From Astrocystis sublimbata (lineage: Eukaryota > Ascomycota > Sordariomycetes > Xylariales > Xylariaceae), in the NCBI GenBank assembly GCA_022453515.1, contig JAJNNY010000017.1, positions 372,001-436,000 on the forward strand: a stretch of 64,000 nucleotides of DNA. Reading direction: 5' to 3'. Position numbers and translations under genes: made by a program. Below are positions 6,896 to 39,408 of the stretch, piece after piece (the first letter of the stretch is position 1; every line of letters starts with the position of its first letter). The notes under the pieces are model-generated. The model ran no database searches, was not told where the DNA came from, and worked only from the letters and a program-made list of their open reading frames with translations.

Positions 6896-9144
6896 TTAAA
6901 AAGCATCGAAGTACAGCTGGCTTACGGTTGAGCGTATCTCCTCGTCGCTTTCTCCTGTATACCCATGCTTTGCGTAGAAGTTCCCATCCCTGGCTCGGAT
7001 GTAGGATCGCAGAGTATCTACTAGATCTCCCGCTGTTGGTCGGTCTGAATAATGGGTACCAAGACACGCACAAATCAGGTCACGCAACATTGGGTCCAAT
7101 CCCGGATATGGGTCGTTCCCCTCATACGGGAGGATGATGCCCCCGTCGGTCATCAGTTCCCGATCTGCGAATCTGAACGTTACGGCGTCATCTTCTGTGA
7201 AAGCGAGCTTTTGATCCGCACCCACATCAAGTGTCACAAGCTCGACCATGGTCTAGAGTGAAACCGTTAGTTCATATCTATGTCACGACTCTCCAAGAAT
7301 TGGGCAGCTCACTGTTCCTATGTCGTAAAGATTTTTATATACAGCCTCGTATAATTCGTCACTAGATCGAACGGATCAGCCACTGAACTCAATATATATC
7401 AGTCAAATTCTAGAGCATGTCTCACCTATCTCCCACGATCTTTTGCATACTGCCAAGGTCAATTAACACCACTGCAACCGCTAGAGTCAGTCATTGCGTT
7501 TCCAAAAAAGAGACTGCTTATCATGAGACTAGGGCTCGCAGGTGTCTCGGGGGCATAGTTACCTGTTAAGGTAATTTATGCCTCTGAGACTTGCCAGATG
7601 GGGGGGTCGATGACTCCAGGGAATGCTCACTGATTGGGGTTATTGCGTGTTCTTCATCAGGGTCATTTGGGATGAATGCCCCAAACATCACTAGCCACAA
7701 GTAAGTCGTCAAGATGTGAGATTCGGTCAGCATTGCTAACTGACAGTTTTCACTGTGCATATCGTCATGTGTAAGTGCGTGACGCTGTGGTCCGTCGACG
7801 ATCTCCGTCACTGGCTCCTGAGCCTCAGGAGGCCAGCCCATGGCTACACACATCCTGGCCACTATCGACACTCTGGTCAGGCGACACGTTCTGGACATTG
7901 GAAGGCGTTTGAGACCTACGACATAAGAAAAATCTCCAAAGAATGCGGTTCGGTAACTTTATTTCTAGTTGTAACGCTCGGTCTATCAATCTAGCAACAG
8001 TCCCACTGCGGCGGTGTCAGCTTAGGTTTATTATAGAATACGAGAGTCGGCCTATGCGCACTAACTTGGGCAGCCATTCGAGATATATCCAGGATTCAGG
8101 GTCCACTAGCAAATACATGTCAGCAGCTGTAGGCTTTGGTGGATGTGCAGTAGGTGTGTACATTGTCATAGTCCACAAGGCATGGCTGACAGATAATTAT
8201 CCCAATCCCCTTCAGATACGAGGACAGAGTTGATTTCCTTCCTTATGATATATCATCAAGACTACTTACTGTGATGCGACTTAATGCCGGGAGATTCTCG
8301 AGCGAGGGGGTCGTTAATGGGTATGATTGCCCTGATTATGTGCTTACTCCATCGTAGAGTCTGACGCCTCGTCAGTCACGAATTAACAAGGAATATCACA
8401 CACTAGAAAGAAAGGATTAAGGGCACCAGAGACCTCTAGCCATATTTTCTCATTCTCTGTCGCCCGATGTGCCTCGCCGTGATCGTCGGTTTCCATATCA
8501 TCATCATCGTCGCCTTCCATATTCTGCTCGCTGCTCCCCCCAGGGCTAGTATCGTCCTCCGAACCGACTAAGTCCCTTCGATCTATCTTTACTGAATCAC
8601 TACATTAGCATATCATGATCTAATCAGGAGTCTTTTCGTTGCGCATTCAGTGTCAAAGAAGGCGGCGGCAAACTTGACTCACAGGCTATAGTTTGAGAAA
8701 TGGGCTCTGTAATACTGGCGTCCGGATTCGGTAATGTATACTTCAGCTTCCATATCAACCCGGTCGCTCCACCTCCAATGGCGCCCTCCATGCGGAAACG
8801 TTTCTCGTCATCTTTTTCGAAATATTCTGCGAGGATGGCCTCGGTTCGGCCGATCTCGTCGATCTCGTCACTGCAATACCTCGATCAACGATTTTTCCAC
8901 GTTCATCTCGTGCTGTAATAAGCAAGAAGTGCTGGAGTGACGGAGAAGAAAATATACGGCTGCGGTGCAGTCGTCAAATGTCAAAAACATGTGATGCATA
9001 ACCTAGAAAAAACCTACCCGAGAGATATAGGAGCCATAGCTTTGCCTTCGACCAGGTCACCGTCTCAGGTGCATTTATCCTGTTTTTCGCGCGTGGTGAA
9101 GGAGTCGAATCAAGCACGGGGTTATCAGCCAAAGTCGCATCCAT
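6896..9144 (-). CDS. Protein kinase-like gene, 11 exons, frame ambiguity near 5' end
   Basis: Exons (5'->3'): 9144-9018, 8912-8683, 8591-8434, 8360-8266, 8185-8066, 8005-7916, 7872-7745, 7690-7631, 7471-7426, 7361-7313, 7252-6896. Phases close from the third exon to the stop. Kinase landmarks: Gly-rich loop GAIGGGATGLIWKLKY, beta-3 Lys in IALKI, catalytic loop THDDMHSEN (the HRDxKxxN Lys is His), DLG in VLIDLGSM, and a C-lobe end RDLICACLGTHYSDRPTAGDLV. An acidic insert with five Asp follows the glycine loop. This is a divergent, fungus-type kinase of unknown substrate. Problem: exon 2 changes frame near 8870 between KIVDRGIAV and DEIDEIGRTE. Either there is a one-base lesion, or exon 1 runs to 9014 and exon 2 starts at 8870, giving an intact 473-residue product with a weak donor. 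One intron is an introner-like element (7630-7472). Confidence 0.6.
7472..7630 (-). mobile_element. Introner-like intron, copy B (kinase-like gene)
   Basis: 159-bp phase-1 intron, GTGAGC...GCAG. It contains the shared 5' block (CCCTGGAGTC about 10 bases after the donor), the hairpin arms AAGTCTCAGAGGCATA and TATGCCCCCGAGAC separated by a short loop, and the 3' block GACTGACTCTAGCGG before the acceptor. Removing it joins HAITPI to VLIDLGSM, the kinase DFG region, so it behaves as a real intron. Closest to copy D. Confidence 0.78.
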
Positions 9145-10068
9145 TTTGTCGCAGGTCTCTATAGGTAGAACTGAAAAGGTAGGCTTGTCACAGGTTGATT
9201 AGGAGATTTAGGACAAAGCAACATTATAATGTGAACAATGCCCTAGAGGACAGGCTTTAAGTCAACATCAGCTCTTTAACGGGCGTTTGCGGCAATAAGG
9301 ACTTGATGTTATGCTTTTGGGGATTCAGCCTGGATGCGAAGTCGCTGCTGTTTTAATTGCCATGAGCATCCAATTGGGACCATCATATGGAGTCGCCCAC
9401 CATGTACCTGATGGTATACAGTCTTGTTGACATGGTCACGACTGACAAGGGCAGTAATGTCGTCGCAGTTGTAGAGATCAGAAATTGCAAACACCTCATA
9501 TTGAATCCGACATGCTGTTGCTTATCCAGTTATTACCTAGGTACCTAATGTGTTGTGGATGTCGAGACTGCCATCAGCCCTAAGGCAAGGGGTCCAATGT
9601 TGGTTGGTGTAGAGGCGAGTCTGAATCATAGAACCTTTGGAGACACAAGTACTTAAGATATCTGCCTACATAGTCCCCCTCGAGCCCTAGGCTAGGTACT
9701 GCTTTGCTCGCTTAAATTGCAAGGCGCTGGCGTTGTAAGCAGATGAGCGTCCATTGGTCACTCTTCTGTATCAGTGGAGCCAGACCCTGAAGGGCTGGCT
9801 GACTTGGCTCATGCCAACGTGCGATGTGGGTCTGGTTGCCATGTCAACAAGACGCAGTGGATGACAACCGGCCACTTGTGCCTGTGCACCTTATTTACAT
9901 TAGATAGTACCTAAAGGAACTTCCAAGTTTTATCATGACGCAGCATTCAACCCAACCACTAACCACCAACCTATATACAGTTGCTTCCCGAACTCCAACA
10001 GCACCATTGGTCTCCCTATCTAGCTAGCATTTGCTTCCATAGATTTACAGCCCTCATTACCGTTACGG
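9145..10068. other. Intergenic region upstream of TACC-type gene
   Basis: No supported gene. The word CCTAGGTACCTA occurs near 9536-9548. Pyrimidine-rich sequence precedes the next gene. Confidence 0.5.
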
Positions 10069-12225
10069 ATGGCGACAGGGCCGCCGACCGCTACCCCCCT
10101 TACACCACTCTCCTTTGCACACAGCGCAGCGCTGAATGCTACCACCATGGCAACGCCTACGCCCACGATCCAGCGCTTCTTCGACGCCCAAGCCGACAGC
10201 CCTGCCCGTGAAGAGGAGAGCCCCAGTCATGCCGCACCTCGTGAAGTACTACCCCAGAACAGCGTGAAAGGTGCGATGGAGCAGGACCAGGACCAGGAGA
10301 ATGCGTCGCCTGCGAAGGCACGCCACAGCCGCATCTTGTCTGGCAGCGGCCCCGCTCCTCTCAAGATTCTTGCTGCCTCGCAAGATCTCCCCGCCGGCGA
10401 CGCGCGATCACCAGACAAGACATCCACCATGAAGAGCCCGCGAAAATGGTCACCCGAGAAGCGCTTTCCCGTCAAGGTCAACGTCGACACATCGCCAGAG
10501 AAGGCCGAGGCACCGGTGCAACACCGCGAGATAACACTAGACGAGGCCATGGCCGACAACAAGGACCTTGCGCAGGCGATACGCATATTCGAAGATGAAG
10601 ATACCATGATGGAGAATGCGGACGACGAGGGCAACAGCACCCTCATCTCGCCTGCACGGGGACAGGAACAGGTTGAGGACGAGGACCCGATCGGCCCAGA
10701 TGATACCATGGTCAGCACATTCAGCACCTTCTCAGCCGTGCCGAATCTGACCATGTTTGCGCGCATCGGACACACCCCTACCAAGTTCGCCAACGTCAGC
10801 TCGACGCCTAACACCCGCCGGCGCCTGGACCTGTCGTCGGAAGAAACACCTCGGGCCACATCCAGGCGCGATTCCGAAAACACCGTCAACCTTCTTGACT
10901 TCACAGACCAGATACAGGGCTTCTCCTCCAGGTACGCCGAGCAGCTATCGAACCTTCGGAGAGGCTCGCCAGCAAAGTCATCGGCCGGTACCGTCGCTTC
11001 TACTCCTCAGAAACGGCAAACCAACCTCCTGGACTTCGACATCCCTCCCCTTCCCACACCCCGCAGCATCCCCACCGTCACTCCTAGGGAACTAGAATCC
11101 CTCAAGTCCGGCTTCCTCTCCGAGATCAGCAGTCTCAAAGCTTCCCTCAAAGGCAAGGAGGCAGAGGTCTTATCGCTGAAATCGGCTGTCGGGGATGCCG
11201 AGAAGCGCGTCGGCGAGTGCATGGAGGAGCTGCGCGAAGTCAGAGCTGTCAAGGAGGCTTTGGCCGACCAGCAGGACGACTGGCAGAGGCGTGGCCAGGA
11301 GATGGAGTCAATGCTGTGTAAAGTCCGAGAAGAGATTGTTCGCAGCCATTGTGAGCGAGATGAGCTCGAGTCCAAATTCGAGGAGAGCGAGAAGCGTCGC
11401 GAAGCGGCCGAGATCATGGCCCAGGAGGCGGAGAGCAAGATGGCGGCCATGCGTGCTGGTAAAGCCAACACAGATGCCCAACCAGATGCCGCCTGCAAGT
11501 CGCCCGAGAAGAACAGGGCCCCGGGGTCTCGCGAGATCGAGATCGCCGTCGAGAAGGTGTCCCGTGAGCTGCATTCCCTGTATAAGAGCAAGCACGAGAG
11601 CAAGATCACTGCGTTGAAGAAGAGTTACGAGAATCGGTGGTCTAAGAAAGTTCACGAGCTCGAAGACAAGGTGAATGAGCTCCAAGAGGCGAACGAGAGG
11701 CTCCACGATACCACCATCACGAGGGTGGACCCTAACATGTCCATCGTCGATGACGAGCGGAAAGCTCAGGCCGTCAAGGACTCGACGCAGATCAGGGAGT
11801 TGAACGCGGAGATCCAGCAGCTCGGTGCTGTCGTAGGCAGTGTCAAGGCTGATAACCAGGAGCTACGAGTCCTACTGGAGAAAGAGCGCGTCGAAAAGGG
11901 TGAGCTGGTGCAACTAGCTGAGGAGATGATGTCAATGCAGAGCTTCATTCAAGCAGAGGCACCTCCTCCGCCTACCCCGGTTGCCAAGTCCAAGCCGGTG
12001 CCGCCACCCACGACTGTCGAGAAACCTCGGAGTAGTGTTTCACGCATGTCCGGCCTGCGTGCCCCTGGCTCTGTGAAGAAGCCCAAAGAGAGCAGGATAG
12101 GTGCCCTCGGAACTGAGCGTAAAATCGGGGGCGGTCTTCCCCGCCCTGGTAGTGGCATGGGCGGTCGAAGCGGTATAATGAGTTCTATCGAAAAGATGGG
12201 CAATTACCGCGGGCGCGGCGACTAA
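10069..12225 (+). CDS. Fungal TACC-domain coiled-coil protein (Alp7/Slk19-like)
   Basis: Single open frame of 718 codons. ATG 10147 has a much stronger context (ACCACCATGG) than ATG 10069 and gives 692 residues starting MATPTPTIQRFF, so 10147 is the preferred start. The first 280 residues are low-complexity with many S/T-P sites (SPAK, SPDK, SPRK, SPEK), typical of CDK substrates. Residues about 345-630 are long heptad-rich coiled coil. Residues about 487-545 (from 10069) read VSRELHSLYKSKHESKITALKKSYENRW, the segment I recognise as the fungal TACC domain of Alp7/Slk19-type spindle-pole and microtubule proteins. The basic, Gly/Arg-rich tail ends GIMSSIEKMGNYRGRGD. Likely role: spindle or microtubule organisation, cell-cycle phosphorylated. 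The specific orthologue is inference. Confidence 0.75.
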   Translation: MATGPPTATPLTPLSFAHSAALNATTMATPTPTIQRFFDAQADSPAREEESPSHAAPREVLPQNSVKGAMEQDQDQENASPAKARHSRILSGSGPAPLKILAASQDLPAGDARSPDKTSTMKSPRKWSPEKRFPVKVNVDTSPEKAEAPVQHREITLDEAMADNKDLAQAIRIFEDEDTMMENADDEGNSTLISPARGQEQVEDEDPIGPDDTMVSTFSTFSAVPNLTMFARIGHTPTKFANVSSTPNTRRRLDLSSEETPRATSRRDSENTVNLLDFTDQIQGFSSRYAEQLSNLRRGSPAKSSAGTVASTPQKRQTNLLDFDIPPLPTPRSIPTVTPRELESLKSGFLSEISSLKASLKGKEAEVLSLKSAVGDAEKRVGECMEELREVRAVKEALADQQDDWQRRGQEMESMLCKVREEIVRSHCERDELESKFEESEKRREAAEIMAQEAESKMAAMRAGKANTDAQPDAACKSPEKNRAPGSREIEIAVEKVSRELHSLYKSKHESKITALKKSYENRWSKKVHELEDKVNELQEANERLHDTTITRVDPNMSIVDDERKAQAVKDSTQIRELNAEIQQLGAVVGSVKADNQELRVLLEKERVEKGELVQLAEEMMSMQSFIQAEAPPPPTPVAKSKPVPPPTTVEKPRSSVSRMSGLRAPGSVKKPKESRIGALGTERKIGGGLPRPGSGMGGRSGIMSSIEKMGNYRGRGD

Positions 12226-12721
12226 ATTTATCGATTTCAACACCGCCACCTTCGACTACCAGCGCGCTTCATCAATGATCACTCATGGGCAATGTTGTGA
12301 AGTTGAGAAATGCTGGCTTTGAGGATCTCAACCGGAAGATCTTCCCTATGCTTTGAATGCTGCAATTGCTGGAGTCCTGGCTGGGTTTTGTTAACGATGG
12401 AATGCCCTTAGAGATACTCAAATTTTTCAATGAGAAAATGACATGAGAAATGTGTTTTGCGTGTTTGGTATTGATTGATAATGTGAGCGGATGGAAACTG
12501 TAAGTCTAGCATCAAAATTGTTGCCTCTGTTTCGCACGATGTCCCGACGCGTCAACACAAAAAGCCAGTACCGTAGATCCACAATGAATAGGTCCTGAAC
12601 TCCAATTTCCCACGGTTATCTGAGGCGTGCCTTTTCTATAGGTGCTGACCATACAACCACACTAGAGCAATATCTCCCTTCTCAAGGTAGTGCAAAGACC
12701 AAGCCTCCACGAGACGGGACT
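12226..12721. other. Convergent intergenic region
   Basis: About 0.5 kb between the 3' ends of the TACC-type gene (+) and the RRM gene (-). It is A+T-richer than the flanking coding sequence. Nothing else seen. Confidence 0.5.
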
Positions 12722-13880
12722 CTAGGCACTGTTAATTCGATCACAGGGATCTGGCCCATAACGAACTGTGACATGTATCCAAAAGGATTTCAGAGTCCCT
12801 TCGATATGTGCTCTTTGGAATGCCTGGATCTTAGCCAACACTCGCTCTGCCTGGCAGCGAAAGCTGCCGAAAGTCCACACCATTGTCACAGTCCCCAGTG
12901 GACTGAGATTGGGCCAAGTCTGAAGGTCTTCCAAATCGAATGTGCACCAAAATTGGAACCAAGGCATCAGGACGTCCTTATTGACGAATTGTGGCAGACC
13001 ACAGATTTGCAAGACGCGCGACTCGGGTCCAAAGGGCTGGGCCGAAGTCAAGATGCGGTTGAGGCGCACCTGTGGAGTCTAAAGATCCCACGGTTAGTCA
13101 TTGCTATCAAGCCTATCGTGGTCGAGGTGTCACGGTTCACCGGGCTTCTCGGGGCGATCTTTCCCAAGTAGAGGGAAACACAAGACGAGACGACAATTCA
13201 GGGGAACTCACATAAGAGCCTACAGTAAACTCGCCTCTGTCGGCGCTCCTTTCCAAGCGCTTTCGGCCCTCAACATCAAAGAAGACGATCTTGGCCGCCG
13301 ATGTTAGGAAAGGATGCTGCGGCTTGTTGATCACTGACGCGTAGATCTTCCCCGTGTCTCGGATCTTGCGCAAAACGTCGGCGTGTGTGCAGATGGGCGG
13401 CAAGTTCGTGATCCATACGCTGGTGCTCTCTTCTAGTCCTATAAGGGCGCACTGGTTGCGTAGCGCATGGCGATTGCCTTGGTAGTTCTGAGATACTGGC
13501 TGGAGGGCAGTGGGCTGTTGAGTACCTTGGTGGTCGTGTTGGGCGATGAGCGGCCCGGGATGGGCTACAATATTTGGTGGGGGCACCCAAGCTGTATGCG
13601 TTGCGTAGTATTGGGGGTTGCCAAATTGATTGTACATTCGAGGAATGTTGCCGCTATTCAACACGGTTCTCGATAAGATACTCCGAAGCATGCGATCATG
13701 TAAATCCTCTTGGCTCGAGCCTGCTGTTCGCGGGGTCTGGATCTCCGTAGTATTGGTAGTCGAAGGTGTGTGCGGGAGTGGCACAGAGCTATTGTACCAG
13801 AAGGGGTTCGCCTGGCTCGCCCCGGGGCTTGTTCCATACAAGTAGGGCGACATGTGGGAATTATTGCTTATTGATTCCAA
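12722..13880 (-). CDS. Two-RRM RNA-binding protein
   Basis: Two exons, 13880-13212 and 13078-12722, separated by a 133-bp intron (GTGAGT donor, CTAAC branch, TTTAG acceptor), phase 0; 341 residues. The N-terminal 145 residues are Ser/Asn/Pro/Gln-rich and probably disordered. RRM1 spans about residues 150-225, with RNP2-like VWITNLPP and RNP1-like AAKIVFFDV. The second exon gives a more divergent RRM-like fold beginning SRVLQICGLP and ending near SFWIHVTVRYG. Fungal proteins with this layout bind RNA, but the target cannot be told. Start is ATG 13880, the first Met of the open frame. I do not recognise an orthologue with a known name. Confidence 0.72.
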
Positions 13881-14733
13881 TTCTTGACTCTGGCCGAACC
13901 TTTTGCTTCTTAGATGTATTTGGGATGGTATTGCGGGGGTTGAATGATAGAGCGTGAGCTGGACTGGACTTGTTTTGGGAAAGAGATAAACTATTCAGGT
14001 AAAGTGAGCAAGCAAGCATATATACATGAGCCGAGACAAGGATGCCTCAGTTCATTTTATTAAAAGAGGTACTCAGGCAGCGGTCTTAGGCAGCTATAAC
14101 AACATCTCGGTTTCTCAACCTTATCAAAGACATGGCATCAAAGACAAATGGGATAGTCAACAATGTTCGCTACACAGCTAGAAGGGTGGCGAGTGCTTTC
14201 GTCTTCCACGCTTTTCTCGACTAGTTAGATGGAAAAACAGGGACAAATGAATTACGTTGAACAGAGGTGATTCAGTCGAAGATGTACACGTGATATATCG
14301 ATGATATTTTCTGTACACTATTCGGTCTCATAAAATGCGTGAGATTGGTCTTTGATTTCAACATCCTACTTCGATTATCTGGGGATATGTATCCTTCAGT
14401 AAATTAGGGACTCGCATGGCCAAGATGTATTACATTGTATGACATGACTTCGGAGCCTCTGCAAAATCCCACAAGGTCGGCAGTATTCCGCAGATATTAG
14501 TCGTACAAAGGAGTTAGACCTCCCGTTAATAGGTGATTAAAAATACTCCATGGCAGAGATCAATACGTCAAAAGATGAAATCAGGTGTGTACTATTACTC
14601 AATGGGAAGGTTTTGTAGCGACTCATTGTGTGTGTGTGTGTGTATTCGGTGATGGCTCGAATGTACAAGAACTCGTTTGTCTAGTCGCACAGATAGTACC
14701 GAGTTGCTCTCAACGACTATGCTTGCCAAACAA
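13881..14733. other. Intergenic region with TG microsatellite
   Basis: No gene recognised. It is A+T-rich around 14270-14580 and has a short (TG)n run at about 14625-14643. Confidence 0.5.
14625..14643 (+). repeat. (TG)n microsatellite
   Basis: Roughly nine TG units, just downstream of the PARP-like gene's stop. Confidence 0.75.
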
Positions 14734-15899
14734 TCATGGCATCTGAAAAGTGCCCCTGTGAATCTTCTGGTATACGTGCTCCATTGATGCTCTTGCCCGA
14801 GAACCATGAGGAATGATAGTTTCTCTTTCTCCCTGTCGATGCTTCCGAACACTACTATCGAGCACGCATTGTGGCATCACAAAAAGATGTCTGACGATAA
14901 CATTTTCTTGAGAGCATTTACCTCTGAAATATCGGTCAAATGGGATCCAGTGGATAACTTTAGTGGCGATTTCGACACCGATCACAACCGCAACGTTTTT
15001 GAACGCGCTGTTTCTCCAACCTTCCATGGTACCCGAAGATAAACCATCATTATACGCGCCTTTGAGGTGGATATACTCTGGGTATGAAGTGAACATTAGC
15101 AGAAGTTTTGTAACCTTGAAACAAAGGCAGAAAACTTACGCATAGCTAGTTCAGGATGCGATGCATAAGAGACAGTGTCACCCTGTGACTGAAGCCCTCT
15201 GTACAGTATGTTGATCAGGTTAATTGCAGGAGTTCCATGGAATCCAGCTAGGCCGGCCTGTAGGTGCTCTCTTTGAATCGAGTCCATGAACGCAATTTGG
15301 TGCGAATTCCCTGAACCTAGTTGGATGAATTGGCTTGAGCATGGAATTTCCGGCACGCGCAAATCAGCCCCAACGGAAACGATGTGTGATCCAAAATGCC
15401 GATTCAACCAATCAAGAACTTTGAAGCGCTCGTCTTGCAAGTAGTCGCCACCCATGAGCTCCGCAAACGTGCTCGTATGGTCAAGGTTTGGGAAGGAGTC
15501 TATCACCTGATGGACTCTAAACGGCTGCAGTGGGAATGTTTCTGGTAGCTTGTACCAAATTGTCCGAGCGTCATCACTTTGTTCACGTTTGTCGACTTGG
15601 ACGGCGGCATGAATACAAGCAAGTAGGAAGTCGAGAGTCTCCGGACTGGGTAGTGTCAAGGTGATTTGTTGCCAGCTCGTAAGCTTAGAACGCTGTTCGC
15701 AACCATGTAACCAGTCATGCTGTTGAGAGTTGCGCGAATCACACTGTTTGCGGCTACTGGCTTTGCGATGGATTCCACCGGAAATCTGGCTTAGAATGAT
15801 TCCAACCACTAGGCAAATGAAACCGCAGGTTATAGCAACGATCATTTCAACCGACGTTATAGTCGGGAAACTGATCGCATATTCATCGGTGGGATGCAT
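14734..15899 (-). CDS. Membrane-anchored PARP/ADP-ribosyltransferase-like protein
   Basis: Two exons, 15899-15140 and 15077-14734, joined in phase 1 across a 62-bp intron; 367 residues. One transmembrane segment lies at residues about 17-40 (MIVAITCGFICLVVGIIL), followed by a basic linker, so the bulk probably faces one side of a membrane. The C-terminal third has the PARP-type signature: H221 in LAGFHGTPAINLINILYRGL (HG[T/S]...N..IL..GL), a short strand YASHPELAMQY, then KNVAVVIGVEIAT and finally QENVIVRHLFVMP, where E311 sits where the PARP catalytic Glu lies. These match the fold of fungal PARP6/8-like proteins (for example the E2-ubiquitin-conjugating/PARP fusions). Inferred role: NAD+-dependent ADP-ribosylation. 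Acceptors and activity are unknown. No macrodomain gene is adjacent. Confidence 0.6.
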
Positions 15900-20916: not shown

Positions 20917-21786
20917 ATGGAGCGTGGAAGAAAGACCAAAAGCTGGCGCGCTGATCTTCGCGCCATGGAAGAAGACCACTTGGAAGCTAGTGAAGCTCAC
21001 ACGAAGTTCAGAGACTCGCAGCCTCCCCCAAACACCCCAAGTGACTATGGCAGCATCGAGGTGCGATCCAAGTCGCCTCCCGAGTGGACCAGGCACTGGT
21101 CGGAGTTCATCCCTCACGGGCCCATGCCGATCCCCAATGCCATCCCAAAGGAGCGCCTTCCCGTCAGTATGTATTTTCTAGAGTTATTTATTACCCCTTC
21201 TGACAAGTCTCGGAAGCATAGATTACCCTAATAGTTATCTATGCTCCCGAGACACCTGCAAACCCCGAGAAATAGTCTTACGATATGAGGCAATTACTGA
21301 CTCCAGCGGGCTGAAGTGACTCCCAGAGGCCACCTCTTCAAGACTGCAGCATATGCTCCCCGCGACGAGAAAGAGATCGAGGCGATGAAGAAACGCGACG
21401 AAGAGGAGCGAGTGCTGGACGAGCGGTACCGACGCCTGAAGCAAGGCGCGATCAGGTATGCCGCATACCATCCCGAGATCAAGAATAAAGATTTCGTTGC
21501 GTACCAGTACCGCGAGGAGCCGCCAGAGGAGTCAGATCATGAGGAGCCATACCCGCCCTATCACAGACATGTCATGAAGCAGTTCGCGCACCAGTATGGC
21601 CACACGACTACCAGTCTCGGCTACGAGGAAGGTATCGAGTACGGCAGAGCCAGAGTCAAGGAGGAGAAGGAGGAGTATGTGAAGAACAAGGCAAAGAAAG
21701 ATTGTAAGTCTCCTGAGATGTTCGCTAGTCAACATTTATTGCACTCTCCACTAATACCACGTTATAGAAAGCAAGTTTCTTCGTAA
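20917..21786 (+). CDS. Small charged protein of unknown function
   Basis: Start ATG 20917 (context CACAATGG). Exon 1 is 20917-21166. A 150-bp introner-like intron (21167-21316) joins in phase 1 to an exon starting 21317. The exon either splices at 21703 (GTAAGT), so that the stop codon is split across the next intron (212 residues), or reads through to the stop at 21784-21786. The protein is hydrophilic: a basic start (MERGRKTKSWRADL), a Pro-rich segment with PSDYGS and PEWTRHWSEF, a Lys/Glu/Arg helix (DEKEIEAMKKRDEEERVLDERYRRLKQ), Glu/Pro and Tyr/His patches, and a second charged helix. I do not recognise a family. No signal peptide or membrane segment. The frame is open upstream to 20257, but that part is Ser/Thr/Cys-rich and unlike the rest. 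Confidence 0.6.
21167..21316 (+). mobile_element. Introner-like intron, copy D (small charged protein)
   Basis: 150-bp phase-1 intron, GTATGT...GAAG. Hairpin arms are AAGTCTCGGAAGCATA and TATGCTCCCGAGAC, and the downstream arm is followed by ACCTGC exactly as in copy B. The 3' block is TACTGACTCCAGCGG before the acceptor. The 5' block is degenerate (TTCTAGAGTT). It lies on the opposite strand to the other copies but has the same polarity relative to transcription. Confidence 0.8.
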
Positions 21787-26091: not shown

Positions 26092-26094
26092 CCC

Positions 26095-26156: not shown

Positions 26157-26159
26157 GGC

Positions 26160-30960: not shown

Positions 30961-30964
30961 CTAC

Positions 30965-32045
30965 ATAACGAGATACCATGTCTTACCAGGCGCCCAGTGT
31001 GGGAGTTGGCGGTCTATTAAATCGGCCTTGGACTATAGAGGCCACGACTATTCCTTGAGTGCGGATGTGAGATTCTCGTCGTGGTTGACGAATCTCAGCA
31101 TCTATAAGGTGGAGCCGTACGTCTACTCCTTCCTAATCAACTACTGAGAACATCAAGCTAATGCTAGTGAGACAGCAGATGCACATAGTGCGAGAGACAA
31201 AGTATTGTCCAGCGTCGAATCAAGCTACATCAGTTCCCTCCTGGCTCCTCATTGTATGATTCAACCACCCCTGAAGCATCAGAGCTGCTAGTCTTGTTGG
31301 TCACGAAGCACTTTGATAGGATGAAATTCAGAGACGACGACTCGGACAAAGTGCTAAGGTACTAGAGTATGCACGAATCAACTGTTCATATGCATCATTT
31401 CAGCTTCGGGGGCCTAGATCCTCATCGGAATCTAAGAGTATCTTCTTGGTTCTATAGACGGTCAAATCTTGACTGCAAGAGAATTATCCTGCTGACTCGC
31501 TTATGCAGATGGTTATCTGGACAGAAGAAACGAAAACTCTGTTCCGAAAGTGGCCCATTGGTTTGTGCGTGAGCATTTCATCATTGTTCGAACACTCAAA
31601 CATATTTCTCTCGTTTGCGACCTACCCCTTTGAGCATGATGGTGACCGGAAATCAAAGTTGCCCCTGTCCCATCCCCCCTCTCCAGTACATGACCTGGAA
31701 ACACCATCAGCACGTACAAATCTTATCTTGGGGAGAATATCCACCTTTCCACAGGCGGAGTCGCCTATTATCAGGCTCGAACAACTTCCAGATAGCCCTG
31801 GGATTCCAGTCTCCTGCTTCATGTTTCACACAAGATCTATCTATCCTTCATCCATGGCGTCAGCGCCAAAATCGATAGATTGCATGCCAGCATCAGCGTC
31901 ATGCAGATGAACCACTACTATCGAATTGACCCCTTGATCACGGACGGTGTGGTCTATTCTAATCCCGTTGGCTTTGAAGCTCATGCACGACGACCCACGT
32001 TCATGTTGCCACTTCGAACACCGAAAACGGGCTGTCAATTTTAAC
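30965..32045 (+). CDS. Probable uncharacterised multi-exon gene, possibly decayed
   Basis: Several plus-strand segments read as protein in order: about 30965-31145 (GAQCGSWRSIKSALDYRGHDY, then RFSSWLTNLSIYKVEPYVYSF), about 31210-31357 (IKLHQFPPGSSLYDSTTPEA, then LLVLLVTKHFDRMKFRDDDS), an exon from about 31403 (SFGGLDPHRNLRVSSWFYRR), the longest frame 31503-31910 (MVIWTEETKTLFRKWPIGLC, then SKLPLSHPPSPVHDLETPSA) and a final segment about 31812-32045 (MNHYYRIDPLITDGVVYSNP, ending PLRTPKTGCQF and a stop). GTACTA at 31358 with CAG before 31403 gives one in-phase junction. Other junctions are unresolved, and no start codon is certain. I do not recognise the family. It may be a functional gene or a relic. 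Confidence 0.38.
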
Positions 32046-33804
32046 AAAGACTCCGATGTCCACATCAGCTACCGTAAAAGTATGCATTGTGCAATACATT
32101 CTTGTATTTCAAGGCAACAATTTGTTTTCATCTAAGAATAATCACAACAATGGTGTGGACCACAAAGAAAAAGGGGCAAGCATAAGTACGATTATGAGCG
32201 GCGAACTCCTAACACCGGAATAATCTCGCGCCTTTCCTAATCTGCTAAAGACATTCGGAATGCTACAAACTCGGACATGCCATCTGAGTATTGGTCACTA
32301 TCCCGCCAGAAGCCACACACTTATTTATGCACGTTCCGTAAGAACCCATGCCATCTGTACCCTGGCGTCGGCTCGCTGACGCGGAAAGTATAATATATGA
32401 ATACTTAGGTAGTGTGAGTGTCTGATCAGATTAGGTGACTATTTTCGATCAGTGACTAAGTAGCTATTCATACTAGATACGAACGGGTAGACATAGATGG
32501 ATATATCTTCGCCTTGGCTGGTAAGAATGACAAACCCTGTGCCCCTATAGTAATAGTTCGTATTAAGGGATAGACCAATCTCCACATCCACTGTCGTCTG
32601 CTGCTAGCTGCAGGAAGCTGCTGCTTGTCAGTACATCATTAGCCCGGTGACTTGCCCATACCCAAGTGAAAATTCTTTCATCAATATGGTGCCTGTAGCC
32701 CTCCCTGGACGTCCTGAACCTAAAGCAAAAAGGGGTAAGCCGCAAGCCACCGATAAATCGTACGAGGCATCGTCTTTTCATATATTGTTTTTAGTGATTG
32801 GTTGAATTCTTTATCGCTACAACAGCTGTGATCGAAATTCCTGTTCGTGGGATATTCTTCCTCCTCAGTCGTGCAGTCGCCATGTAACAAAGTAATTAGC
32901 GTAGTGGAAGATGGCACCCATTAGCACTATAAATCATGACCTGCTTCATTAAAGATTCAAGCAGATAAATTAGAGCTAGAAGTTCTTTCGTTCCACATCT
33001 CAGAAACTCTGTTACATTGGTCTGGCGACTTGAAGTCACGATTGGAGTGCTCCAGCGACCTGCATAACAGGTTGGAGGTTCATTGCCCTTTTGCATGACG
33101 CATCAGGTCCTGACCGTCCTGGTCAAGGCCGCCCAGACTGAGACCGGGCATCCATTTATTTTTTATTTTTGTATTTTCTTTGCTGTGTCATAGATTTCCG
33201 GCCACACATAAGTATCTATCCACCTGAACACTGATAAGCAATTCAGATTGACTTGCTCACGAAGGAGTGGAAGTATGAAAGTTTGAAACTGCGTTGCAGT
33301 AGGTACTTAGATAGGAAGGTACCTACAGATGCTTCGAGCGTACTGAGCAGTACCGAGGTACACTGGCTCGACTGGCTCGACTGGCAACTCTATGACTGGA
33401 GCAATCCCGATAAGATAAGAAGATCCACTTTGTCTACCTACAATACTACCTAAAGGTACGTACTTCAAGGTTGCTGTGTCAACAATCCGGCTCGCTGGTT
33501 TGTACTGTGTAAACTTAAAGTGTGCCCACTGCCAATGCAACAACCCTTTGGGTTGGGCTAAGAAGCAACTGGGCCTAGGTACGGTAGGTAGTAGGTATTC
33601 AATTCACATGATATGCCGGTCCATCTGGCATCTGGGGTCCTCCTCATCTGCTTCAATCATGCTCAGTCTTTTTATCCCGTTCTAGTTGTATTACCATATT
33701 TGCCAGCACCTTGTGCTGTTGCCCACGTCGGCGTTCTGTGTTTGTATTCATTTCTTCGCCATTGTTACATTTCACCCGATACGCAGACCTAAAGCAGAAG
33801 CAAG
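32046..33804. other. Gene-poor region upstream of Cdc14
   Basis: No supported gene in about 1.75 kb. TAGGTA/TACCTA-type words cluster at 33299-33325, 33440-33465 and 33575-33600. A short CTGGCTCGA tandem occurs at about 33362-33382. Confidence 0.5.
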
Positions 33805-34780
33805 ATGGAGAACCTGCTATCCCTCGCTTTTGACAACCTTTCGTCGTACGACGGCGGCAAGATCCGGAAAGGCCTGCGCCAGGTCGAGAGCCTGCTGGCC
33901 AACATCTGCCTCTCCCGCCAGGACACCAGCAGCAGAGACCGTCGAGCCTCCGTCGCGCAACCGCAGGACTCGCACCCGAACAGCAAGGATCTGAGCGAGC
34001 TCACCGACGACCCGGCCTTTTACGAGTTCTTCAAGCTGCAAGAGGGATTCGAGTGGAATGTCGCTGTGCGCCTCGTCACCACGCTCGATCGGCTGCTGGC
34101 CAAGGGCGGCGACGGATCCAACGATCTCCTCATCCTGAATGCTCTGGACCTGATCCAGGGGGTCATGCTGCTCCACCCGCCCAGCAAGGCCCTCTTCTCG
34201 CGCGAGATGTACATGAATGTATGGAAAGCCCCGCCTTGGTTCCGCGCTTCTTCGTCTTTGCGGGCTCTCGTTTGGGCTAACAGTGAGCGTGTTGTCACGA
34301 TAGCTTCTCCTCGACCTCATAGAGCCCGACTTCTGTCCCGCGATCCAGTCAGCGACTCTTCTCACGCTCGTCACCGCCCTCATCGACACCCCACAGAACA
34401 CGCGGACCTTCGAAAGCCTCGACGGCCTGCTCGCCGTGACCTCGCTCTTCCGCTCGCGAGGCACGAGCCGCGACGTCAAGCTCAAGCTCATCGAGTTCCT
34501 CTACTTCTACCTGATGCCCGAAGTCCCATCGATCCCGAGCGCCACGCCCCGCGACTCCCTACCGGGGTTATTGCAACGCAGTCCCAGCAAACTCGCCAAG
34601 GCTTTCTCATCCTCGGCCGGCGGTGCCAGGGACGAAAATGGTCGGCCGCGATCCGCCGGCGAGACTGCCATCCGCAGCCAGGCAGAGAAACAAGCCCTAC
34701 TGGGCCGGCACCTGAATAGTGTTGAGGAACTCGTCAAGGATCTGCAGCAAAACACCTTGTTCAACGGTGTCGTTTCGTAA
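33805..34780 (+). CDS. Cdc14-type SIN component
   Basis: Two exons, 33805-34218 and 34304-34780, phase 0; 296 residues. Starts MENLLSLAFDNLSSYDGGKIRKGLRQVE. Recognisable family stretches: DDPAFYEFFKLQEGFEWNVAVR, NALDLIQGVMLLHPPSKALF, LLLDLIEPDFCPAIQSATLL, NTRTFESLDGLLAVTSLF and LKLIEFLYFYLMPE. This is the cell division control protein 14 family of the fission-yeast septation initiation network (the Sid1 kinase partner), not the budding-yeast Cdc14 phosphatase: no CX5R phosphatase motif is present. It is expected to act at the spindle pole body to trigger septum formation. The C-terminal 90 residues are Ser/Pro-rich then helical (LNSVEELVKDLQQNTLF). Confidence 0.88.
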
Positions 34781-35163
34781 CGAGCGACTGACTCGTCTAC
34801 GCGGCCCTGAAATTGCGTCTCTGACTGCATCGTTGTGCCTTGCTTCGCTATCTTTTCCAGCTTTTTATTGGTCTCATATCGTTGCAAATGGAGCGGCACC
34901 TGCCTGTATTGACACAGGCTGGATCTGGGAATATTTGTTTGTAGCGATGATCATTGTACATATCCTCTCTTGCGAGAGAAATCAAGGAGTTTCTGGTGTT
35001 GCGGCGCATTGGGCGCATATAGCACTGATTGGATGGAGGATACATTGCAGTTAGGGAAACAGCAGTACAGTCGGATGCAATAGCTACAAGACATTGGGCT
35101 AATACTGAGAAATTTCGTCGCGCTCCCCCCTATCGAGAATTCCACCATATGCCCAGTCATCTA

Positions 35164-36639
35164 TCACATCCTCGGAGACCACGACCCCTTTTCTGTCGGG
35201 TGCCCTAGCTCATCAGACTTCAAGGACGAGGGAGTTCCGAGGCTACCCATCAATTCAAAGCGACCCTCGGTGGAATCCTCCACCCGAGTCGGTGGCTCAG
35301 CCGTATGAGCCGCTAGTTCATTCTTCCTTGGCCCGTCGCCATCTTCCTGCGCCTCACTCTCGCCCATTTCGACCGGCCTCAGTATGTGGTCTGGGTGGTA
35401 TGGCGTGACACCCGCCGTGGGTGGTGTCGCATCGTGAATGGGATTGTACGACGCATGCCCGTTCTCTTCCCGGTCAGTGTACGGGCCGTCTATCGCGTCG
35501 GGCCCGATGTAGCCATATTCGTGCGGGTAGGAGCTTCCGTTGCCGTCCGAGAAGCCAGACCGGGGTGTGTACGGCGATGTCGGGCCGTTATAAAGAGAAT
35601 CGCCAGCGTCCGGGTCTCCTACGCCCGACTCGGCCGCTAGCTCGGTCGTCGTGTTGCGCCGCATCTCGGGCGCCGCCACGCTGGCGGTGCCTCTGGTTGG
35701 CGGCCGCTGCTGCTTCCGCCGGCGGATGCACAGCCAAGTGACAGCAGCGATGATGATGGCGGCGCCGAGGGCCACACCCACGCCGATGCCCGCCTTCGCG
35801 CCACTCGAGAGGGCGTGGGACGAGCTGCCGTTGTCGAAGATCGACGGGTCCGGCGCGCACACGGCCATGGAGGAGGCCGTGGCGACGCTCTGGAAGGTGC
35901 AGATGGAGCCGGTATTGCAGCAGCCTCCCCCTTCCGTCTGCGCGCACGTAATCTGCGAGATGGTGCATCCCGATGGTATCTCGGGGATGATGCTCGAGAT
36001 GGAGGTGGTGGATGGGGTTGGGTCGGCGATGCAGTTGTTCCCCAGCGCGCATTTGAAATTGTACGGACAGCATTGCCCGCCAAACGCCATCTCGCACGAG
36101 AAGGACGCCTCGTTGCAGGCGCGGTTGCAGCATGCCGCGTAGGTGGATCTCGACATGACCGAGGTCACCACCATATCGCTCTGTGGCTTCCCAGCCGAGG
36201 TCGTCGTACCAGCAGGCACCAAAGCCGTCGTCGTCCGGTTGCAGTACAGCTCGTTGGGTCCGCATTGCGAGTCCGGGCATTTCACCCCCAGCTGGCAGCA
36301 TCTTGGCTCCCAATGCTCGTTCAGGTAGCAGTACCGGTCGTTGTCGCAGCAGGTGTTCGGCGAGTCTACCTCGATGCAGCTGTGCTGCCCTGCCGGACAC
36401 AAGTTCTCCTGGCGCGGGCTGAGGGCGCCGCCGAGCATGTATTCGGGGTTGGGACTCAGGAGTTGGGCCGGTAGCGCTGGTGTGCCCTGGTACCAGCGCG
36501 GCGCGAAGCCGTTGCCCGCATCGACGGGGAGCCGCGTCGCATTATCCAGAGCGTTGGGGCGGGGCACTGCGCCGAGGGCGAGATGGATTTGCGGGTTGAA
36601 GAAGAGAAAGAGGAATGTTGAAAAGGAAGACGCCGCCAT
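35164..36639 (-). CDS. Cys-rich single-pass membrane protein
   Basis: Uninterrupted frame of 491 residues. Signal peptide at residues 1-23 (FSTFLFLFFNPQIHLALGA). The ectodomain, about 24-285, has more than 20 Cys in pairs (CPAGQHSC, NTCCDNDRYC, RCCQLGVKC, AACCNRAC, QCCPYNFKC, GGCCNTGSIC), suggesting several disulfide-bonded modules. Ser/Gly linker, then a transmembrane helix at about 290-312 (GIGVGVALGAAIIIAAVTWLCI) followed by RRRK as stop-transfer. The cytoplasmic tail of about 175 residues is Pro/Gly/Ser/Tyr-rich and acidic. The layout resembles fungal surface sensors or adhesins, but I recognise no named family. Transcribed away from the gene-poor intergenic at 36.7 kb; its 3' end converges with Cdc14. 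Confidence 0.75.
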   Translation of the reverse strand: MAASSFSTFLFLFFNPQIHLALGAVPRPNALDNATRLPVDAGNGFAPRWYQGTPALPAQLLSPNPEYMLGGALSPRQENLCPAGQHSCIEVDSPNTCCDNDRYCYLNEHWEPRCCQLGVKCPDSQCGPNELYCNRTTTALVPAGTTTSAGKPQSDMVVTSVMSRSTYAACCNRACNEASFSCEMAFGGQCCPYNFKCALGNNCIADPTPSTTSISSIIPEIPSGCTISQITCAQTEGGGCCNTGSICTFQSVATASSMAVCAPDPSIFDNGSSSHALSSGAKAGIGVGVALGAAIIIAAVTWLCIRRRKQQRPPTRGTASVAAPEMRRNTTTELAAESGVGDPDAGDSLYNGPTSPYTPRSGFSDGNGSSYPHEYGYIGPDAIDGPYTDREENGHASYNPIHDATPPTAGVTPYHPDHILRPVEMGESEAQEDGDGPRKNELAAHTAEPPTRVEDSTEGRFELMGSLGTPSSLKSDELGHPTEKGSWSPRM

Positions 36640-37480
36640 TTGATGGGGGCAAGGGGACCTTGCCCAGCATATACTACAAGACCCTGGGCCTTATAATTGA
36701 CGGCACTTGCATGAGAGTCAAGACCCCAAGGACAGATAGAAGATGCTAAGGGATCAGGCGATTCGAGGATATTCCATCAAGTGAAGCTCGCAGAACGGTA
36801 AGCCGGGCATCTAAATATAGTCTGCGCCTTTGATGTTGATTGAGGGGTTTGGATCTTTTATTGTGTTAAGACAAAGCCGAAAGAAGGCTGCCATTGAGAG
36901 AAGCAGTATGCCCATCGCCACGCAAGGCGCTTCACTTATTTTATCTGCAGCCTGGCTGACCCCGGCGGCGAGGACCAACACGAAGGCAGCCCGCGGGCGG
37001 GAAGGGGTGGTGGGTAAGTAACTTGCTGACAATGTGGATGGTGTGGTAGGTAGGTAGTATCCAGCATCCACCAGTACGTGGTCGGTCGCCGATAGGTCGG
37101 CGTCGTGAGAGGCCACGGCATTGTATTACCACGCTGGATCACTATAAGCGATGCAGACCATGCTTGCTTGAATTGTTTCTCATTGGTTCCGCCCGCATAC
37201 CTACCTACCTACCTATTACTGCTCTTGGTTACGCTTCAATTGGAACCTGGCAAGGTTGGAGTTCTGATGGGATTACAACACTGGGCATCCAGGCCCGCCA
37301 GGTTAGCCTATGCTATACAGACCTGGTAGTTATGTTGACTATTTGCAAGTTCCATGTTCGTTATAACAATAAAGGGGGGAGAGGCGAGTTGTTTATTCAG
37401 GACTGTATGTACACTTGCGCTGTGGCGGCGCAAGTGTAGGTTGGCCCAGGCTTCCCAGTAACTACTTACTTAGTATCTTC
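36640..37480. other. Intergenic region with TACC repeat
   Basis: No gene recognised. A (TACC)n run at about 37198-37214 and GTAGGTAGGTAG at about 37046 belong to the recurring TAGGTA word family. Confidence 0.5.
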
Positions 37481-39408
37481 CTAGATACTCCAGTCTCCAT
37501 TGCTCATAAGCTGCGATATTATACCCGCAGCTTGTTCCTTCAGTTCGCTTTCGACATTCCAGTCTTCATATATATGCCCCTTTGGCAAGTTGGTATTCTC
37601 AAACGGTTTACCCTCCTGCAGATGGCCCAGCGCGGCTGCGAAGTTCTCGCGGGCATAATCCTCCGGTTTGTGTTGCCACATCCACCGGCCAAGTTGCCAA
37701 ACTCCCTCGAATGGATTCTTGCCCTCGTCGAGCAAGCTCATGTCAATGTGATGAATCTTTTGACGGCTCACGATGCCGAATCGTTGAATCACTGAAACTC
37801 GCTGGTATCGCAGCTTCGTATGTACCTTGACTGCCCAAGACACACGCGCACTTCCGCCTTGGTATAGGCACTCAGCTAACGAGATGCCATCCTCCATCGC
37901 CTGTGTCGCACCATTTCCCGATGATGGTAGGAACGCATGTGCGCTATCACCCAGCTGGACGATGCGTCCGCCCTTCGATGCCCATACAGGCTGCGGATCA
38001 CGCCAGGTAAGCTTCCAGTCGATGAGCGCGTCTGAGGGCACCTGTTTGACCTATACCGCTGGGGTCAGTAAATCCCTCTTATAGATGCTCATGAGGGCAA
38101 TTTATGCCTCCATGAGCTGCCACAAACGGGAATAAATGGCTCCATGGAGATACATACAAAGTCCATGATCTGCTCGCCCCAGTTGGTATGCTCCGACAAC
38201 ATCGCAACAAGCTCTTCGGCTGGGATCGTGTTGGCCCACGACTCCTTCGCACTGCCGTCTTCCTTATGCGTGAATGCAACACCGATTTTATCGTGCGTGA
38301 GCAGGACGAGAAGATGCATATTTTCACTGTATGGCGTGTCAGAAATCGATTATACGAAGACCAAGTGTTCACGGCACTAACCCAGCATAAGTGCGAACTT
38401 CGGGAGTTTGGCCAGGCCTCAATAGTAGCTCGGCACCTCGCGATCCGGGAGCAATACACTCAGGGCTGAATGCCCCCCTGATTACCGCGTAACCGCTGCC
38501 CACAAAGGGCAGGTGATGGCCTGTTATGATCTCATGAGACTTGGTGCCAATGCCTTCAGCGGCAACAACAACGTCACCCGTGAAGACTTCGCCTTTGGTG
38601 GTGATAACGCGGGCCTTGCCAGAGTGACCATCTTCCTCGTAGTTTGCAACTTTGTGGCCGTACAAGATTGGAATGCTCAACCCTATGACCTGTGAAGTTA
38701 GCGAACCATGGCTCTAGGGTGTTCTCGGAACTCCTACATAACCCTGTAGAGCTTGAGACTATTCACTAGTCTGTTTGAACGACTTGTTTGCTACCCGTCA
38801 GAAACAAGCAGGCGTCCATCAAAGTGACTTACGTTTGATCTGGTCTTCCAGCATTTTCATGACCTGAGAGCGCAGCTTCATAAAGCCGACAATGGGAACG
38901 TCTTTGGCAGCATGTGGCGCCGCACCAACACTTCAACCGCCGGAGTCAGTACTCGCCATGGCCATCCAGATTTCAAGATTTTCTTATAAATTGCGTGAGT
39001 GCAAATGTCTCAGGGGCACATACATAGCCCTGAGACTTGCCGGGAACAAAAGACTCCAGGGATTACACACCGATTCCACTCAGGTAGTTCGCTGACCACT
39101 TTTCGACCATCCGGGCTGCACCACCAGATTGGCGAGTTCCAGGTTGTCTTGTTGTATTCCGCAAGCATAGTCGGATAATAGTGCAGCGTTGAAAGGGCAG
39201 AAGGGCCGATGGCAAAGAAGTCGCCGAGACTCGACAAGGCATCGTTCTGCTCTAGAATCTCGACATCGATGCCCTTACGCCAACACTCCAGGGCGGCGAA
39301 CATGCCACCAATGCCAGCGCCAGATATCACGATCTTGATACCTGTACGAGGTTGACGCTGAACGCCGTCGGTGACTTCGACGGGTCGCGATGGTAGTGAC
39401 TGGGCCAT
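37481..39408 (-). CDS. FAD-dependent monooxygenase (salicylate hydroxylase-like)
   Basis: Five exons, 39408-39071, 38930-38833, 38682-38382, 38326-38158 and 38050-37481; all phases close; 491 residues. Group A flavoprotein hydroxylase features: GAGIGG dinucleotide fold at 30-35 followed by EILEQND, DVVVAAEGIGTKSH (the DG-like motif), and GRIVQLGDSAHAFLPSSGNGATQAMED with the FAD-phosphate GD pair at 336-337. These NAD(P)H-dependent enzymes hydroxylate or epoxidise aromatics and secondary metabolites; fungal salicylate-hydroxylase-like members are often in degradative or biosynthetic loci. The substrate cannot be read here. Two of its four introns are introner-like elements (copies A and C). 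Divergent from the zinc-finger regulator at 40291 across 0.9 kb, so co-regulation is conceivable but unproven. Confidence 0.87.
38051..38157 (-). mobile_element. Introner-like intron, copy C (monooxygenase intron 4)
   Basis: 107-bp phase-0 intron, GTATGT...ATAG. Hairpin arms are GCTCATGGAGGCA and TGCCCTCATGAGC: both arms differ from copies A/B/D, yet they still pair, a sign that pairing is conserved. The loop keeps the TAAATT word of copy B. 3' block: TACTGACCCCAGCGG. Shortest copy. Confidence 0.72.
38931..39070 (-). mobile_element. Introner-like intron, copy A (monooxygenase intron 1)
   Basis: 140-bp phase-2 intron, GTGTGT...GAAG. 5' block AATCCCTGGAGTC, hairpin arms GCAAGTCTCAGGG and CCCCTGAGAC with a short loop, and 3' block TACTGACTCCGGCGG before the acceptor. 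Removing it joins LPEWN-R to VGAAPHAAKD in frame. Confidence 0.78.

Follow-up and report, generated by a model that had tools for sequence, protein, structure and literature searches.

The window analysed here is a stretch of 64,000 nucleotides from Astrocystis sublimbata, and in it lie four related introns, each beginning with GT and ending with AG, whose parts are given below on the strand of the intron. The first (positions 7472–7630, minus strand; 159 bp, phase 1, GTGAGC..TTGCAG|T) belongs to subfamily A and has a fold z of −4.25. Its near-terminal inverted-repeat blocks are TCCCTGGAGTC on the 5′ side (7612–7622, 0 mismatches) and ACTGACTCTAGCGG on the 3′ side (7478–7491), the latter holding a branch-site-like CTGAC, and its inner hairpin (GTCTCAGAGGCATA / TATGCCCCCGAGAC, 7544–7590) is nearly self-complementary. 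The reading of its host gene is the weakest of the four, because only 16 codons separate the intron from the stop. The second, on the plus strand (21167–21316; 150 bp, phase 1, A|TG), has the GCTGAAG tail of subfamily C, a degenerate 5′ block read from the sequence (CTAGAGTT, 21178–21185), the 3′ block ACTGACTCCAGCGG with a branch-like CTGAC (21296–21309) and an inner hairpin at 21207–21253. The remaining two are on the minus strand. That at 38051–38157 (107 bp, phase 0, F|V) is an internally shortened copy of subfamily B (TATAG|GT), with TCCATGGAGCC (38138–38148, 2 mismatches) and ACTGACCCCAGCGG (38056–38069, again with CTGAC) as its 5′ and 3′ blocks and an inner hairpin with arms GCTCATG and CATGAGC (38087–38117). 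That at 38931–39070 (140 bp, phase 2, CG|T) is of subfamily C (TTGAAG|T) and has the 5′ block TCCCTGGAGTC (39052–39062, 0 mismatches), the 3′ block ACTGACTCCGGCGG (38937–38950, with CTGAC) and the inner hairpin GTCTCAGGGC / GCCCCTGAGAC (39007–39036); in both of these copies the hairpin was read from the sequence.

A covariance model (R1) trained on 19 copies, including those at 7472 (E = 5e-40) and 21167 (E = 9e-43), also recovered the two window copies outside its training set (E = 7e-18 for the 39070 copy and 2e-12 for the 38157 copy). It found exactly these four sense copies, and no fifth up to E = 10; two extra matches were the antisense side of the inner hairpins of the 7472 and 21167 copies. 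A search of the window against Rfam gave no matches. When 2–3 mismatches were allowed, the single blocks were not commoner than in a shuffled window (7 versus 5.8 for the 3′ block and 20 versus 18.6 for the 5′ block); the whole element is far above chance expectation. The original prediction that these introns align end to end was therefore borne out, as were the phases that it gave (0, 1, 1 and 2; here 1, 1, 0 and 2 in the order above) and, from the host peptides of the copies, the unrelatedness of the host genes. Its description of the parts needs some correction. The 3′ block is indeed close to the acceptor, at a measured distance of 5–7 bases, but not at the upper figure of 8; the shared 5′ block is exact at 7612 and 39052 and degenerate at 21178, as described, but has two mismatches at 38138; and the common hairpin is clear in three copies, but that of the 38157 copy has different arms.

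Genome-wide, TACTGACTCCAGCGG (up to 1 mismatch) gave 108 matches compared with 5 for the reversed control, and CTGGAGTCATTTATTC (up to 2 mismatches) gave 131 compared with 10. Loci were drawn from the best 100 of the 108 and 100 of the 131 matches listed. For a second set, 80 stretches (83 of 102 further places) were searched with the model, which matched at E ≤ 0.01 in 72 and gave no such match in 8. One weak match (L136, 18–190) and those cut by the locus end (L105 and L117) were left out. In total 147 copies were examined (73 in the first set, 73 in the second and the window copy at 7472), with a typical length of about 157 bp, and a rough estimate of the family total is about 220 copies; as copies were found by sequence, broken or intergenic ones could be under-sampled. 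In eight of the 147 a donor or acceptor could not be assigned, and the flank counts cover the other 139 (A 64, B 22, C 38, D 15); a tree was made from 136 copies, each 100 bp or longer. Two copies, L013 and L014, are 100% identical over 157 bp and lie in unrelated genes with different flanks, which argues that the family was active very recently, and for 12 of the 139 the nearest copy is at least 95% identical. The four window introns are thus members of a large, recently active intron family of A. sublimbata. That this genome carries an introner-like family of its own, possibly still young, had been predicted, and the many further copies found, where few or none would have spoken against a family, support this.

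In 139 of the 147 copies a GT donor and an AG acceptor could be assigned close to the ends given by the model, and a branch-like motif is present in 138 of these 139 (CTRAY in 116, TTGAC in 22). Where both flanks are strongly coding (27 copies), removal keeps the reading frame in every case, compared with 7 of 27 if the copy is left in. Codon usage was better in sense than in antisense for 118 of 139 copies, and the upstream and downstream frames agreed in 105; as this is a weak test of coding context, open spans were also counted. The open span reached 370 or more of a possible 380 nt in 62 of 139 copies when spliced in sense, in 13 in antisense and in 6 unspliced, and it was below 200 nt in 10. 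Judged in this way, the copies are mainly exonic and in sense orientation. The public gene model of one window gene splices both of its introners (38157 and 39070) at the predicted sites, and homologues, compared at protein level, show no gap at the junctions. Alignments to PDB entries were gap-free over five of six junctions; the sixth (L049), a distant alignment, has a 4-residue gap at the junction. In A-type copies, splicing to another AG, 9 nt before the acceptor, would preserve the frame while adding 3 residues, but gap-free homologue alignments in three hosts oppose its use.

The 5′ and 3′ blocks are mutually inverted repeats in a near-terminal position, the outermost intron bases being unpaired; the original prediction had missed this, as it had the target-site preference described below. 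The 17-bp ends TGCAACYNCTGGAGTCA / TGACTCCAGCGGTTGCA have 165 matches genome-wide compared with 44 for the reversed control, and many of the matches listed are the two ends of one element of about 157 bp. The repeats decay in older copies, the terminal duplex being −19.9 kcal/mol in 25 young copies and −12.1 in 38 old ones. Fold z was below −2 in 56 of 64 copies of A, 14 of 22 of B, 13 of 38 of C and 9 of 15 of D (means −4.3, −2.7, −1.5 and −2.3, respectively). Conservation of the terminal pairing by compensation was considered and rejected, since a copy's own ends pair hardly better (−16.2) than ends taken from different copies (−15.7; −9.1 with shuffled 3′ ends). Nor did RNAalifold give clear covariation for RNA pairing in subfamilies A, B and D: compensatory cells numbered 3 in A against a shuffled mean of 3.8, 3 in B against 0.7 (largest of 200 shuffles, 3) and 2 in D against 0.9 (largest, 6). 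Together these values indicate that the terminal pairing is inherited and lend no support to its maintenance.

Only four bases of the exons carry the target signal, U−2 and U−1 upstream and D+1 and D+2 downstream, and it is strong at D+1 (z = −11.6, tree-based, 136 copies). In subfamily A the downstream base is T in 59 of 64 copies, whereas this is so in 8 of 22 introns found ab initio, a set that may include false ones (Fisher p 5e-7). Upstream, A is present in 32 and G in 9 of the 64, and the motif, (C)A^T(G), is near palindromic. Subfamily B has GT downstream in 18 of 22 copies, and its motif fits that of A at offset +1 only. The donor G of B may therefore be borrowed from the target, although this is formally ambiguous from the one-base shift and the GT count. 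Subfamily D prefers AG upstream (11 of 15, p 1e-10; A at −2 and G at −1 in 13 of 15 each). Each lineage thus prefers its own target bases, about two on either side of the insertion. That the downstream T arrives with the element was considered and rejected for L014: the ATG codon split there specifies a Met shared by 41 of 42 homologues, so this target T predates the insertion. The residue that follows the 39070 junction is V, whereas P stands there in 16 of 22 homologues, which suggests that insertion at this site may not have been perfectly clean.

No excess of target-site duplication in a fixed register was found in the 139 copies, whether the repeats were sought abutting the intron, between exon end and intron end, between intron start and exon start or in exon bases only, and no pair of exon positions exceeded z 2.9 (137–156 pairs per subfamily). 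When the register was allowed to slide by 3 bases, flank matches of at least 4 nt were present in 40 of 139 copies against a mean of 31.7 (reached by 1 of 60 within-subfamily permutations), and of at least 5 nt in 12 against 7.1 (3 of 60); in exon bases only, matches of at least 4 nt numbered 10 against 7.9 (18 of 60).

In earlier descriptions, ascomycete introners bear no transposon marks and their sites are random or only mildly biased. The original prediction took Dothideomycetes and algae for comparison, whereas the host here is a sordariomycete of the family Xylariaceae. The introner-like elements of Fulvia fulva, Dothistroma, Zymoseptoria and relatives (Collemare et al. 2015, PMC4457414) are likewise canonical introns that occur as many similar copies across unrelated genes; a genome has several families, some of them with near-identical young copies, and degeneration is fast. 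Going by the published descriptions, the present family differs from them in its Sordariomycetes host and its subfamily-specific target preference. An AG/GY preference is attributed to van der Burgt et al. in PMC8469720; it is absent from A and B, and D resembles it on the AG side. The lineage-specific insertion site is new relative to the known fungal introner-like elements.

We favour, with a probability of roughly 0.65, the reading that these are U2 spliceosomal introner-like elements, of which whole-intron copies are inserted in sense into exons by way of the excised RNA, 3′ end first. The excised intron RNA would be copied into a preferred target (in subfamilies A and B, R^T[G/C]), its 3′ end being joined first and the inserted copy then fixed as DNA; the folded ends would serve mobility and not splicing, and in subfamily B the donor G would be supplied by the target. 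Against this reading stand the inverted repeats, a trait of DNA transposons, a lineage-specific target preference that is unexpected under plain spliceosomal reverse splicing, RNA pairing without clear covariation support and the small sliding-register excess of flank matches. The possible under-sampling of broken or intergenic copies, the eight copies without an assignable donor or acceptor, the ten with short open spans and the V at 39070 also weigh against it. It is conceivable, though we would not rely on it, that introner lineages carry their own specificity, with sequence near the intron's 3′ end picking the target, integration beginning with the joining of this 3′ end to the future first base of the downstream exon, and one subfamily doing without a donor G of its own and taking it from the target. 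If true, spliceosomal introns would be mobile RNAs guided by the element itself, comparable to group II introns in how they work and not in kinship. Lineage-specific target bases would provide a handle on how spliceosomal introns are gained; as A. sublimbata combines young copies (one pair identical), ends that are inverted repeats and a short target motif that is heritable and specific to each lineage, the choice between RNA and DNA becomes directly testable.

It is unlikely that the copies are instead non-autonomous, MITE-like DNA transposons doubling as introns, whose 17-bp ends are recognised by a host transposase. The excess of end matches over the reversed control, the near-palindromic motif of A, the variation of target choice by lineage and the slight excess of sliding flank matches would all fit such elements, but fixed-register duplication is absent, insertion is biased to exons and the sense strand, both splice sites are present in most copies and no longer, possibly autonomous, element with the same ends was recognised among the 100 matches listed of the 165. 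DNA-transposon introners were reportedly described by Huff et al. in 2016. Helitron-like rolling-circle elements have TC..CTRR ends and insert at A^T without duplication. The present family shares duplication-free insertion with them, and A|T flanks occur in 40 of 139 copies; unlike them, no copy starts with TC or ends with CTRR (0 of 139 each), and the upstream base is A in just half of the copies even in subfamily A. With the DNA-transposon introners of algae and other eukaryotes (Gozashti et al. 2022, PMC9860276), the family has in common the inverted repeats and a possibly target-borrowed splice-site base, whereas fixed-register duplication is missing and the sense exonic bias is distinct. 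According to Gozashti et al., ascomycete families lack both TIRs and TSDs; TIRs are present here.

That intron RNA or cDNA enters random breaks at end joining (the model of Fekete et al.), the base preference reflecting survival of well-spliced insertions, seems to us improbable. The model shares with the present family a seamless insertion that leaves no duplication, and symmetrical termini (PMC8469720, PMC12403724), and the AG|GTCAGT of subfamily D would suit a weak donor needing an upstream AG. However, it does not account for the one-base offset between A and B, nor for the scarcity in A of an upstream G, which should aid splicing, and it is opposed by the T at D+1 being so much commoner in A than in the ab initio introns, false ones possibly included. 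We know of no splicing reason for a T at this position. Descent from the sister stwintrons of the Xylariales, as cropped canonical forms, is very improbable. Sister stwintrons and cropped sister introns are known from Hypoxylaceae and Xylariaceae (PMC8469720, PMC12403724), thus from the same order, and share with the present copies near-terminal inverted repeats, seamless insertion without duplication and a symmetry that is most marked in young copies; they include cropped canonical introns (PMC8469720). They are, however, twin introns of the [D1,2] kind or derive from these, the near-identical clusters having GUAUAAAAAC ends, and their sites are reported as unbiased (PMC8469720, PMC12403724), whereas in Astrocystis each introner is a single intron, the ends are of the TGCAACYCCTGGAGTCA type and the sites show the strong biases given above for A, B and D. 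The published NTIRE-10 ends (GUAUAAAAAC / GUUUUUAU..) occur in 0 of 139 copies, and the copies leave in frame as a single GT..AG unit, with no donor split between G1 and U2 in evidence; a G directly precedes GT in 32 of 139. Finally, we give almost no credence to ordinary old introns made alike by segmental duplication, gene conversion or chance: the two copies of C11 lie in a likely inverted duplication, but the host genes are unrelated and the identical introns of L013 and L014 sit in unrelated flanks.

The four look-alike introns of the window (7472..7630, minus strand; 21167..21316, plus strand; 38051..38157 and 38931..39070, both minus strand and in one gene) proved to be genuine relatives, as the original prediction had it, and they belong to a real, large and young introner-like family of the sordariomycete Astrocystis sublimbata. 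On reading of the sequence all have GT..AG ends and common blocks, over lengths of 159, 150, 107 and 140 bp, and a covariance model trained on 19 genomic copies recovered all four, including two outside the training set (E=7e-18 and 2e-12), with no fifth sense copy in the window. With mismatches allowed, neither the 5' nor the 3' block taken singly is uncommon in the window, and only the complete element exceeds chance. The introns lie in phases 1, 1, 0 and 2, respectively, and that at 7472..7630, with 16 codons downstream of it, has the weakest host reading of the four. For the protein of the gene with two introners, non-self homologues were found at 80% identity or less, the first being labelled Lasiodiplodia mahajangana (80%) and the close ones after it coming nearly all from Xylaria and other Xylariales.

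The expectation of further copies elsewhere in the 42.6-Mb genome was borne out. The 3' block gave 108 matches against 5 for its reversed control and the 5' pattern 131 against 10, with about even strand splits (57/51 and 74/57), and BLAST with a single consensus returned 169 first-look candidates, 40 of which were scored. Two sets of fetched loci (73 copies from each) and the window copy at 7472 together provided 147 non-redundant copies, and a rough capture-recapture estimate based on both pattern lists puts the genome total at about 220. The repeats of CTGAAGTCATTTACTC, found in both orientations on contig G000 C9, with a single instance on C60 and another on C62, are probably an unrelated repeat that fits the 5' pattern.

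A typical copy reads GTATGCAACYCCTGGAGTCA, an inner hairpin of GTCTCGGGAGCATA and TATGCTCCCGAGAC, and then TACTGACTCCAGCGGTTGCAG. The 5' and 3' blocks are mutual inverted repeats, some 17 bases long apart from a two-base mismatch, and the 3' repeat contains a branch-like CTGAC; two mini-introners, L156:300-358 (59 nt) and L106:492-561 (70 nt), consist of scarcely more than these two ends. Copies were sorted by tail and head, leaving flanking exon bases out, into subfamilies A (tails ..GCAG, GTAG or ACAG; n=64), B (tail ..TATAG; n=22), D (head GTCAGTT..; n=15) and C, a mixed remainder (n=38).

That removal of the element restores the reading frame, also claimed originally, held in every copy where both flanks were strongly coding (27/27 with the copy removed, 7/27 with it left in place). 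A donor and an acceptor could be assigned close to the model ends in 139 of the 147 copies; upstream and downstream frames agreed in 105 of these 139, and a CTRAY or TTGAC motif lay inside the last 32 nt in all except one (138/139). Joined flanks were open for at least 370 of 380 nt in 62/139 copies in the sense direction compared with 13/139 in antisense, and by the same measure in 6/139 unspliced and in 23% with mismatched flanks. The window monooxygenase has a public gene model whose exons meet at the predicted sites at both introners, and homologue alignments showed no gap at either junction. Alignments of joined peptides to carbamoyl-phosphate synthase, 6-phosphogluconate dehydrogenase, GTP-binding protein 1, a fumarylacetoacetate-hydrolase-type enzyme and alcohol dehydrogenase were likewise gap-free across the introner junction, the exception being a distant agmatinase alignment with a 4-residue gap there. 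A-type copies, for example at window positions 7472-7491, carry an extra AG nine bases upstream of the acceptor used (CCAG in many, CTAG in the window copy); splicing there would leave the frame intact and lengthen the product by three residues, which makes it a possible source of alternative splicing.

The exon bases flanking the copies are far from random and differ by element lineage. In A the downstream base is T in 59/64 copies, followed by G or C in 50/64, and the upstream base is A in 32/64; B has GT downstream in 18/22, with G or C next in all 18, and D has AG upstream in 11/15. In a 136-copy tree the exon base directly downstream changed 25 times, compared with 46 for shuffled labels (z=-11.6), with further signal at the second downstream base (z=-5.6) and at the first (z=-5.2) and second (z=-3.3) upstream bases; each remaining exon position from ten upstream to twelve downstream gave |z| <2. 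The bias in A is alike in young (17/18) and old (16/19) copies, and T follows 8/22 ordinary-looking ab initio introns, where it is not dominant. A one-base shift is needed for B sites to match the A motif (mean score +1.64, against -0.43 at the next best offset and 2.21 for A sites on their own motif, left-one-out), and so A and B seem, from sequence comparison, to share the target site R^T[G/C]. The G of the B donor could then be supplied by the target, the sequence fitting either placement of that G.

At one site, locus L014, the target T is shown to predate insertion, because the copy splits an ATG codon whose residue is Met in 41/42 homologues. At the junction of the window B copy (38051..38157), 15/22 homologues have V (GTN). 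The residue following the 38931..39070 copy is V where 16/22 homologues have P, possibly a trace of imprecise insertion, and this counts against clean insertion everywhere.

No duplication of target bases was found in any fixed register of the flanks of the 139 copies; when the register was allowed to slide by 3 bases, matches of at least 4 nt showed a small excess (40/139 against 31.7 expected). The sense exonic bias, together with the lack of a clear duplication, favours an RNA intermediate. Spread as a DNA transposon keeps some weight because of the inverted repeats at the element ends, but we consider it unlikely; the family departs from the DNA-transposon introners (PMC9860276) in showing no target duplication in a fixed register, and Gozashti et al. 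describe ascomycete introners as outliers with neither TIRs nor TSDs. For the RNA route, the strongest target signal falls on the base joined to the intron 3' end, which suggests that the bond between this end and the first downstream exon base may be made first, as in reversed exon ligation. Some part of the element, through pairing or a bound protein, would also have to help in picking the target, since a lineage-specific site is unexpected if the spliceosome alone chooses.

Membership among the fungal introner-like elements (PMC4457414) is well supported on features other than absence in relatives. The sister stwintrons (PMC8469720, PMC12403724), the only kind reported from Xylariaceae in the literature covered here, share with our family the order Xylariales, terminal symmetry and seamless insertion. 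However, they have their own end sequences, matched by 0/139 of our copies, a donor that is split, and integration reportedly free of bias, and because ends, donor and site bias all differ the A. sublimbata family is not one of them. Among largely open-access papers listed for fungal introners, the species, target and splice sites and Xylariaceae intron gain, no prior report of the family was found; its lineage-specific target preference appears to be new.

The suggestion that the family is still young was upheld by the copies at L013 and L014, identical across 157 bp on different contigs with unrelated flanks, and by 12/139 copies having a neighbour of at least 95% identity (median nearest identity 0.83). 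The terminal duplex stands at -19.9 kcal/mol in young copies (neighbour at least 90%; n=25) and -12.1 kcal/mol where the nearest neighbour is below 75% (n=38), and nothing clear was seen by way of covariation supporting maintenance of the fold. Read most simply, this suggests that folding of the ends may serve spreading and is lost gradually after a copy becomes fixed; the same difference would arise in any inherited inverted repeat through random mutation.

Several loci (L028, L031, L037, L040, L051, L057, L059, L063 and L046/L049) hold two or three copies inside 1.5 kb, often of mixed subfamilies. Two opposite-orientation copies with matching end sequences on one 61-kb contig (G000 C11:39256-39407 and 53723-53874) are probably an inverted segmental duplication or an assembly feature. 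At L028:1016-1318 (minus strand) two introners abut with zero exon bases between them (..GGTTGCAG|GTATGCATTCC..) and a third lies 182 bp away in that locus; the second appears to have entered precisely at the 3' splice junction of the first, itself AG^TGG.
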